A stretch of 24,657 nt of DNA, from IMG/VR virus record IMGVR_UViG_3300048672_000491, positions 1-24,657 of that record; one strand, given 5' to 3'. The notes under the pieces are model-generated. The model searched no databases. It saw only the letters and a program-made list of their open reading frames with translations, and had not been told where the DNA came from. Source of the DNA: a virus. The position numbers and the translations under genes are program-made. Positions 12,316-14,160 of this stretch are shown here, piece by piece; the first letter of the stretch is position 1, and each line of letters opens with the position of its first letter.

Positions 12316-12375
12316 ATGTCCGCAAGTAAAACAACTGTTTGAAACAAATGTTTTATTTTATTGGGGAATACGGTA

Positions 12376-12408
12376 TATAATCGCGCAAACCTTTGTTATG
12401 TTATAACA
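12376..12408 (+). promoter_or_regulatory. Promoter with downstream palindromic operator ahead of the head gene
   Basis: A consensus -10 TATAAT (12376-12381) is followed by CGCGCAAA, then the palindrome TGTTATG T TATAACA (12394-12408, one mismatch between arms), six bases before ATG 12415. The RNA would start near 12388, so the operator lies in the leader. No -35 close to consensus and no ribosome site are visible. The same two elements occur in the reverse order at 4988-5022. Confidence 0.6.
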
Positions 12409-12414
12409 TTACAC

Positions 12415-14160
12415 ATGATGCAAAAATTAGCAAAACCTGTCATTTCTAATCGTGGCGTAGCAATACGCTATCGAAAAGCTATTGACCGTGAAATACAGGC
12501 AATGCTGGATTCTTTGGAATATTGGTTACAAGCGGCATACCGAAAAGCACCTCCACTGATTGCGCAAGATGCAAGTCCAGTGCAAATCGTTAAAAAGATT
12601 TTCGCTCGGTTAGCTAAGTATTGGCTAGACCGCTTTAACACCAAAGCCGATGAAATCGCAAATTATCACGTTGGCAGAATGTTCCAAACATCGGATAAAT
12701 CACTACAACAATCTTTGAAAGATGCGGGCTGGGCTGTCGATTTTAAGATGACCAAAGAAATGAAGGACGCACTCAACGCAAGTATGGCGGAAAACGTGGG
12801 ATTGATTAAATCGATACCTGCTCAGCTATTGCCACAAGTTGAGGGTATCGTGATGCGGTCGTATAGCTCAGGGCGTGACCTATCAACGATGGTTGATGAC
12901 ATTAGAGCATTGCACCCAGTCTCACAAAGACGCGCCGCATTGATAGCACGCGATCAATCCAACAAAGCGAATGCTGTCGTTAATCGTACCCGCTGTTTAG
13001 AGCTTGGAATAACTGAAGCTAAATGGATGCACTCCAGCGCAGGAAAGAAACCACGCGCAAGCCACGTTAAAGCACATGGCACGGTGTTCGATATTGCTAG
13101 AGGTTGCAAGATTGATGGTGATTACATACAGCCAGGCGAACTTATTAATTGCTTGCCAGATTATTCACCAATTGAGTTCTTTCCAGACTGTAGGAAGTTT
13201 TTTAAGCGTAGTTTTACTGGTGAATTGACCAGACTTGTTACGGGCATGGGTTCGACTATCGAAGCGACTGGAAATCACCCCGTGCTTACGCAACGCGGAT
13301 GGATTGCTATTAAGGATGTTAATTTGGCTGATTATGTAGTCAAAATCAGAGACCAACAAATCAATCGACATGAATTTAACAACCAACAAAGTGTACCCAG
13401 CATTGGTAAGATATTCGAGGCGTTGTCTATAATATTCGGTATTGAGGTGATAGCTCCCGCTTCTATAGCTCAATTCCACGGCGACGCTACCAATAACGAA
13501 GTCGATATTATAACCGTGCAATGCTTTTTGCCAGATGAAATCAATATTATTGAGTTGCAACAATTCTTTAAATTCTTTTTCACCAGTGCCGATCATTTGC
13601 TCATAAGCGAGACCGAACTGGATACCATTAGCGCGTTTAATTTTTTCGTTAGCAGGTCTTGTAACGCCCCTGACAGCATCATTAGCAGCTTTACAACGTT
13701 TCTGTTTTTGGTCAAAAGGCATTTGAGCCATGCTGACGATGTTGGCAGCGGAGCTATTGCGCAACTCAACGCCCTCTTGTTTGAGTCGGTGTGTAATAAC
13801 ATTTCTAGCTACTTGGTATTTTTTGGCAAGGAACAGCACACTAAGTCCATCGATATATTCAGCAGCGATAATTTTGTTAGGAAGTTCTATTCTTGTTTTC
13901 TTTTTGCTTTTAAGCGGGATAATAAGCCCACGTTGTTTGATATAAGTGCTGATGACATTACGACCAAAACCAACAACGGCGGCGGCATCCTTGAGGGTGT
14001 ACCCATCGGTGAATATGAGCTTGACCGCGTTATCAATATCAGTAGTAGTGATTTTTCTGGACATGTTTATAATCTCGAGAATAAATTAAATTGGTATTCT
14101 GTAAACAATATTATAACACACAATTGCCGATGTACATCACGCGCCATTTTACCAATATGA
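12415..14160 (+). CDS. Mu gpF-like head morphogenesis protein, interrupted by an intein
   Basis: A minor head protein needed for procapsid assembly. The 581-residue precursor is 245 residues of N-extein, a 325-residue intein and 11 of C-extein. The N-extein has the gpF-like C-terminal region: RRAALIARDQSNKANA, KWMHSSAGKKPRASHVKAHG, then GCKIDGDYIQPGELIN. After splicing it would join to CRCTSRAILPI, restoring the family's PGE-x-INCRC motif, so the mature protein is 256 residues. Start ATG 12415 is preferred to TTG 12361, which precedes the -10 box; ATG 12418 is also possible. The stop overlaps the next start (ATGA), so ribosomes must cross the whole intein to couple to the next gene. Confidence 0.92.
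   Translation: MMQKLAKPVISNRGVAIRYRKAIDREIQAMLDSLEYWLQAAYRKAPPLIAQDASPVQIVKKIFARLAKYWLDRFNTKADEIANYHVGRMFQTSDKSLQQSLKDAGWAVDFKMTKEMKDALNASMAENVGLIKSIPAQLLPQVEGIVMRSYSSGRDLSTMVDDIRALHPVSQRRAALIARDQSNKANAVVNRTRCLELGITEAKWMHSSAGKKPRASHVKAHGTVFDIARGCKIDGDYIQPGELINCLPDYSPIEFFPDCRKFFKRSFTGELTRLVTGMGSTIEATGNHPVLTQRGWIAIKDVNLADYVVKIRDQQINRHEFNNQQSVPSIGKIFEALSIIFGIEVIAPASIAQFHGDATNNEVDIITVQCFLPDEINIIELQQFFKFFFTSADHLLISETELDTISAFNFFVSRSCNAPDSIISSFTTFLFLVKRHLSHADDVGSGAIAQLNALLFESVCNNISSYLVFFGKEQHTKSIDIFSSDNFVRKFYSCFLFAFKRDNKPTLFDISADDITTKTNNGGGILEGVPIGEYELDRVINISSSDFSGHVYNLENKLNWYSVNNIITHNCRCTSRAILPI
13165..14064 (-). CDS. Antisense Vsr/EDxHD-like putative homing endonuclease nested in the intein
   Basis: A 299-residue protein on the strand opposite the intein, in exact codon register (its residue n faces intein residue 306-n). 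Two helix-turn-helix-like repeats are visible: about 9-46 (TLKDAAAVVGFGRNVISTYI) and 63-99 (LSVLFLAKKYQVARNVITHRL). A nuclease core follows: GYNIDFVIGSVAVELSY with D188 and E197, H206, then YYRQRLEYLTNAGYTLLVVK (211-230), the layout of Vsr-like and EDxHD homing nucleases. The tail has RNKSGQF (275-281). Its ATG faces intein His305 (block F); its stop faces Ser6 (block A). The protein reads like a real one, unlike other antisense ORFs here. Function as the intein's homing enzyme is inference. Confidence 0.82.
   Translation of the reverse strand: MSRKITTTDIDNAVKLIFTDGYTLKDAAAVVGFGRNVISTYIKQRGLIIPLKSKKKTRIELPNKIIAAEYIDGLSVLFLAKKYQVARNVITHRLKQEGVELRNSSAANIVSMAQMPFDQKQKRCKAANDAVRGVTRPANEKIKRANGIQFGLAYEQMIGTGEKEFKELLQLNNIDFIWQKALHGYNIDFVIGSVAVELSYRSGSYHLNTEYYRQRLEYLTNAGYTLLVVKFMSIDLLVSDFDYIISQINILNSNPSALRKHGVISSRFDSRTHARNKSGQFTSKTTLKKLPTVWKELNW
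14110..14118 (-). promoter_or_regulatory. Putative minus-strand extended -10 promoter for the nested nuclease
   Basis: On the minus strand 14118 to 14110 reads TGTTATAAT, a perfect TGn plus TATAAT extended -10. RNA would start near 14103, about 39 bases before the nuclease ATG (14064). CGAGA lies ahead of that ATG at ribosome-site distance. No -35 close to consensus is seen. On the sense strand these bases encode the intein's last residues (I-I-T). Confidence 0.45.

Follow-up and report, generated by a model that had tools for sequence, protein, structure and literature searches.

A probable homing endonuclease gene nested antisense, in exact codon register, within an intein of a phage head gene

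Can an intein that has no endonuclease in its own frame carry one on the opposite strand of its own DNA? The question is raised by the virus contig IMGVR_UViG_3300048672_000491, of which positions 1-24,657 (the window) were analysed. Its gene content is that of a phage structural region (terminase, portal, DUF2213 protein, capsid cement and major capsid protein), and a plus-strand ORF at 12361-14160 encodes a head-morphogenesis protein of 599 aa that is interrupted in frame by an intein at 13150-14124. Nearly the whole of this intein faces a long open frame on the minus strand (Table 1). The two frames are in exact codon register, every nuclease codon being read from the complement of one sense codon; the nuclease stop TGA lies opposite intein Ser6 (TCA) and the nuclease ATG opposite intein His305 (CAT). 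A preliminary description had given these ORF coordinates, strands, register and pairings, and all of them were found as claimed. We conclude that this is very probably a mobile intein with its putative homing endonuclease encoded entirely on the other strand of the intein DNA and in exact register with the intein codons.

Table 1 Features of the interrupted head gene and of the gene on its opposite strand
Feature	Position in the window	Strand	Evidence or remark
N-extein, Mu-F / SPP1 gp7-like head morphogenesis (minor head) protein	12361..13149	+	PF04233, E 1.7e-7; phrog_324 head morphogenesis, E 4e-66; start codon approximate
Intein, 325 aa, Cys1 ... His-Asn, +1 Cys	13150..14124	+	PF14890, E 1.9e-9; profile match 2jmz, 1.8e-10; exact empty alleles in homologs
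Intein block B, TGNHPVLT	13267..13290	+	Sequence; T40 and H43 invariant, n = 46 inteins
Sense motif FHGD, opposite nuclease V194-A195-V196-E197	13474..13485	+	Wobble bases nearly fixed
Intein block F, GHVYNLEN; His codon CAT is the nuclease ATG on the opposite strand	14059..14082	+	
Intein C-terminal block G, ITHN	14113..14124	+	Sequence; terminal Asn invariant among 46 inteins
C-extein, CRCTSRAILPI and stop	14125..14160	+	Agrees with intein-less homologs
Antisense gene, 299 aa, two HTH units and a Vsr/EDxHD-like probable homing endonuclease	13165..14064	-	ATG start; profile and fold matches
HTH unit 1, nuclease residues 7-48	13921..14046	-	AlphaFold helices; 2lvs profile match
HTH unit 2, nuclease residues 63-100	13765..13878	-	AlphaFold helices; 2lvs profile match
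Nuclease domain, residues 160-253, with E162, D188 and E197	13306..13587	-	3r3p, E 1.8e-7; Foldseek prob 1.00
Shine-Dalgarno-like GAGAT, 8-12 nt before the nuclease ATG, written by the block F Asn-Leu codons	14072..14076	-	Weak version

On the sense strand, the marks of a class 1 intein are present: C1, T40, H43 and N325 are invariant (46 relatives), the +1 residue is Cys, and block F was identified. The window intein starts with Cys1 and ends HN/C, and its profile matched solved inteins, 2jmz among them. Without the intein, the head protein reads CKIDGDYIQPGELIN/CRCTSRAILPI followed by the stop, and this sequence matches 77 intein-less homologs. AlphaFold modelled the HINT fold, with most pLDDT values over 90 for residues 1-65 and 290-325, and Foldseek matched the model to the RecA and DnaB inteins (prob 1.00, modest E-values). 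The splicing fold comprises intein residues 1-70 and 289-325; residues ~83-125, including FHGD, were predicted with intermediate to confident scores and are constrained, and residues ~146-280 are largely unstructured in the model. The sense middle therefore appears to be mostly tolerated read-through of the nuclease gene, and most of it (~146-280) would mainly have to stay open. No Pfam endonuclease was found on the sense strand of the intein, and the sense frame is open throughout, not broken between N- and C-inteins as in a split intein. The intact splicing blocks and the lack of a nuclease on the intein strand, both asserted in the preliminary description, are thus upheld. The head precursor is presumably processed by protein splicing.

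The minus-strand protein of the window, used as a single query, gave weak matches to DUF559 (E 8e-4) and to 3r3p, which is I-Bth0305I (E 0.09). With a profile of 50 nuclease family members the matches were 2lvs (tandem HTH, E 1.8e-7), 3r3p (E 1.8e-7) and 3hrl (2e-5); the top-scoring chain was the repeat protein 8vd6, which aligns with the HTH part only. PF18741 (REase_MTES_1575) was detected in 20 of the 50 members and HTH_7 in 30. The AlphaFold model of the antisense protein had a mean pLDDT of 89.2, and its top PDB match in Foldseek was the catalytic domain of I-Bth0305I (prob 1.00, TM 0.60 on target, E 1.3e-3), the E-value being modest because the match is limited to the nuclease domain. 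In the comparison with Vsr and I-Bth0305I that had been proposed as a check, I-Bth0305I was thus the best of the nuclease matches from the PDB, in the profile search as well as in the fold search. The two HTH-like repeats that had been described were recovered as extra DNA-binding modules (2lvs, HTH_7, AlphaFold helices). The proposed core of D188, E197 and H206 stood in part: D188 and E197 do not vary among 50 relatives, the window included, but the H206 column varies, and the best-supported third acidic residue is E162, which is nearly invariant; a WH, a candidate for the conserved His of EDxHD, is common in the relatives. PHROGs and NCBIfam contained no family for the antisense protein, apart from weak DNA-binding matches. 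The antisense nuclease is predicted to cleave the uninterrupted allele site-specifically. Among the nested records, the feature tables that we examined annotate only the head protein, with the exception of Salmonella phage PK1 (L405, 1402-2211), where the antisense ORF is entered as a hypothetical protein (XRA40086.1), the sole such case among the records inspected.

The arrangement is widespread. A match to the nuclease family was found at 164 loci (partly redundant, 129 non-redundant, and not fully independent, since family queries were used), 162 of which are nested and open in both registers; the exceptions are two free-standing Acinetobacter genes. Nested copies occur in the IMG/VR contig L001, in phages of Klebsiella, Edwardsiella, Vibrio, Aggregatibacter, Salmonella, Escherichia, Pseudomonas, Gordonia and Helicobacter, and on a Chloroflexota plasmid. 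Plasmid III of Candidatus Promineifilum breve (NZ_LN890657, L013) carries terminase, head and capsid genes besides this intein and is probably a phage-plasmid. When genome contigs were scanned, the window protein as query found no relatives and an alignment as query found three.

Selection of loci by the intein gave the same picture. With the whole intein as query, the nuclease frame was open through the nuclease in 79 of 80 loci, and with the N-terminal block as query the nuclease was present in all of the 80 best loci; all 160 loci thus carry the nuclease opposite the intein, one of them broken by an indel. An antisense frame commonly broken in homologous inteins, which would have spoken against the preliminary description, was accordingly not observed. 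More than 540 relatives were among the matches listed, and no mini-intein of this clade without the nuclease was among the best 80 loci of the N-block query, whose top matches favour this clade. Of the 80 sense-selected loci, 22 were scored as containing stops; apart from L168, these stops are natural C-terminal ends or lie before a later start. In L168, a single indel disrupts both the intein and the nuclease frame, which may be an assembly error or a dead copy.

The host gene of the element is nearly always a Mu-F-like head gene. In L074 (IMGVR_UViG_3300043607_000009), an intein with the antisense nuclease lies in a long ORF for a uracil-DNA glycosylase (PF03167), and in L149 and L158 such inteins lie in host ORFs that match no Pfam family and are apparently not Mu-F. 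The head-gene ORF of L076 (IMGVR_UViG_3300007640_001881) apparently holds tandem inteins, the first ending ..VHN/SQTCQGLHGKKF and followed by the antisense-nuclease intein.

A comparison of intein-plus and intein-minus alleles, also proposed earlier, revealed exact empty sites. Among the informative homologs of the head gene (~50-63% identical to that of the window), 77 of 78 lack the intein and one, L380, has it together with the antisense nuclease; L333, with the uninterrupted site NCSC, and L400, whose sequence stops short of the site, were scored as "other" and stand outside the 78. In Jersey-like phages, the head gene was found in 377 records and the intein in 70. The head gene of the intein-plus Salmonella phage VSe103 (1860 nt) differs from that of the intein-minus phage Ent2 (1044 nt) by exactly the 816-nt intein. 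The two are 99% identical around the intein, but only 62% in a tract from -97 to +16, and this tract of VSe103 is 94% identical to that of the intein-plus Escherichia phage Snoke. Upstream of the tract, the head genes of Snoke and VSe103 are 67% identical; their nuclease-region DNA is 95.6% identical and their N-exteins 68.5%. This comparison was made without the intein-less Salmonella loci L408 and L409, whose insertion sites were not located by the script. To judge by these identities, the tract is a classic homing or co-conversion footprint, as left by double-strand-break repair; it comes from Salmonella and Escherichia relatives, not from the window phage, and a conversion tract alone does not identify which nuclease cut. 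The element thus has the properties of a mobile intein, namely plus and minus alleles at one exact site and, in the Salmonella relatives, horizontal transfer with co-conversion of the flanks.

The same observations bear on the possibility that the antisense gene encodes a genuine DNA-binding nuclease with another job, such as phage exclusion or regulation of the late operon, while the intein is moved by ordinary recombination. Its action on a target is a prediction from sequence, its two HTH units could serve a regulator, and some phage homing nucleases function in exclusion too. We nevertheless regard this as unlikely, given the strict coupling of the nuclease to the intein, the sporadic occupancy with exact empty sites (one intein in the 78 informative homologs), the short conversion tract at the insertion site and the fact that the nearest solved nuclease is a homing enzyme.

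We sorted the differences in 20 independent pairs into four classes by their effect on each strand, and obtained rates of 0.129 for changes nonsynonymous in both strands, 0.337 for those nonsynonymous in the sense strand only, 0.237 in the antisense strand only, and 0.759 for changes synonymous in both. In the intein/nuclease region, w_anti was 0.38 (0.32-0.44) and w_sense 0.54 (0.49-0.59), compared with a w_anti of 0.82 (0.75-0.90) in the single-coded N-extein, a control that calibrates neutrality. These rates, a test proposed in the preliminary description, indicate that purifying selection acts on both strands. By segment, w_sense was 0.36 in blocks A-B, 0.49 in the nuclease segment and 0.81, about neutral, opposite nuclease residues 106-160. 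Two-strand selection covers blocks A-B, intein residues ~83-125, where FHGD lies, and block F as far as His305. At nuclease residues 194-197, the codons were GTC in 67, GCC in 63, GTG in 67 and GAA in 63 of 68 sequences, with codon backgrounds of 0.43, 0.44, 0.20 and 0.45, respectively; these near-fixed wobble bases produce FHGD on the sense strand, and the motif is conserved in the intein beyond the need of the opposite nuclease codons.

Many inteins contain decayed endonucleases, as in the homing cycle, and the antisense gene might likewise be a relic, a former homing nuclease that is now inactive and retained only through the need for an open sense frame. This is very improbable, since w_anti in the nuclease segment is 0.28, against 0.82 in the control, and sense constraint alone would not preserve antisense residues; the invariance of D188 and E197 and the footprint of recent transfer in relatives also speak against it. 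The reading as a fully nested, opposite-strand homing gene is instead supported by the Vsr/EDxHD match and the kept antisense frame, with the modification that most of the sense middle mainly stays open.

The in-register stops of one strand are the TTA, CTA and TCA codons of the other, and their expected number was taken from the codon usage of the window phage. Given the nuclease protein, 18.4 stops were expected in the sense strand and none was observed (log10 P -10.4); given the sense protein, 16.9 were expected in the nuclease strand and none was observed (log10 P -9.3). The longest open in-register antisense run opposite 13 other genes or gene parts of the window was 94 codons, and in 127 non-redundant nested loci 756 in-register TTA, CTA and TCA codons were expected and none was found. 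With ~18 in-register stops expected and none present, chance is excluded.

A natural control is provided by the Acinetobacter phages IME285, BUCT629 and P1068. They carry one free-standing nuclease homolog with 33-37% identity to the protein of the window, and inspection of IME285 and BUCT629 placed it tail-to-tail behind an uninterrupted head gene that ends MCKCRAKL.... In the register opposite the free-standing gene of L008 (455-1345; L008 and L009 are Acinetobacter Obolenskvirus phages), 12 stops were observed and 10.4 expected, and the active-site wobble bases of the free-standing homolog do not give FHGD. Having stops opposite, this homolog shows that the nuclease family is a real protein by itself, and the L008 control argues that the open sense register elsewhere is maintained by selection. 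It is possible that the Acinetobacter form is the ancestor of the nested orientation, or else a derived escape form.

The idea that the antisense ORF is an artefact of chance or composition, a conserved intein read backwards in register, can draw on the exact register, which lets the conservation of one strand leak into the other, and on the long antisense ORFs of GC-rich genomes (seen in L010-L013), but it has practically no chance of being correct, as stops are avoided in AT-rich loci too, purifying selection is evident relative to the extein control, the nuclease fold is recognisable with invariant catalytic residues, and the free-standing homolog without an intein opposite, together with the selection test, refutes it. 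The related worry that sense conservation leaks into antisense tblastn matches is countered by the four-class rates with the extein control, by the Acinetobacter homolog and by the active-site codon choice.

We also looked at signals for expression of the nested nuclease. A Shine-Dalgarno-like motif is present at the right distance in 77% of 116 nested genes with an ATG start, versus 14% of internal ATGs. The block F codons for Asn and Leu spell this motif, and the Leu is encoded by CTC in 55 of 71 cases, against an extein background of 0.20. A promoter scan of the window gave nothing above shuffles. The nuclease is presumably expressed and translated from an antisense message; we speculate that a separate antisense gene would uncouple nuclease production from late head-gene expression.

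What rests on sequence here is the anatomy, the homology, the two-strand selection, the exact empty alleles and, in relatives, the conversion footprint, and the following mechanism can be proposed. Translation of the head gene would run through the intein, which would excise itself to leave an intact head protein, and the antisense message, starting at the ATG complementary to the block F His codon, would give the two-HTH nuclease of the Vsr/EDxHD type. When two phages are present in one cell, this nuclease would cut the intein-less head-gene allele in or close to the INCRC codons. The intein, the nuclease and short flanks would then be copied from the intein-plus allele during repair, so that mixed infection would lead to homing.

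Canonical mobile inteins, which have a LAGLIDADG or HNH enzyme in frame, share with this element the class 1 splicing domain, exact empty alleles and horizontal spread, but here the endonuclease is outside the precursor, in a separate antisense gene that spans nearly the whole intein and uses the same codons. I-Bth0305I is encoded in a group I intron, and the related genes of Dassa 2009 reportedly lie between split-intein halves; unlike both, the present nuclease is antisense within a contiguous intein. Its catalytic domain fold, D/E core and extra DNA-binding domains are shared with I-Bth0305I and the EDxHD homing enzymes, a known family (PMC3943268). Antisense His-Cys homing endonuclease genes have been described in nuclear group I introns (Didymium squamulosum L2066; PMC9548176). 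There too the homing gene is on the strand opposite the splicing element, but that element is an RNA and the gene lies in a peripheral loop, whereas here both strands code for protein with the same codons. Free-standing homing endonucleases that adjoin their target gene represent collaborative or intronless homing; the Acinetobacter homolog, tail-to-tail beside an uninterrupted head gene, resembles them, but almost all of the relatives found have the gene inside the intein. A full-text literature search, with most subscription papers beyond its reach, found no homing gene antisense in an intein; an earlier mention is possible.

To summarize, these loci probably represent a large and widespread class of mobile inteins with splicing and homing overprinted on opposite strands: the His codon of block F would serve as the nuclease start, its neighbours as the ribosome-binding site, and the active-site codons as FHGD. 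The class may have originated when a free-standing, tail-to-tail nuclease gene invaded an intein at its cut site, and nuclease expression would thereby have been freed from late head-gene expression. Two full protein functions, splicing and homing, would thus be encoded on opposite strands by the same codons, with strong comparative evidence of selection on both, which includes a natural single-coded control, and a nuclease family is revealed that almost always goes unannotated. Common phages of Salmonella and Klebsiella now allow direct tests of how overprinted genes originate, of the cycle in which homing genes decay and of when homing takes place in phages, and the class is predicted to be a source of new inteins and site-specific nucleases.
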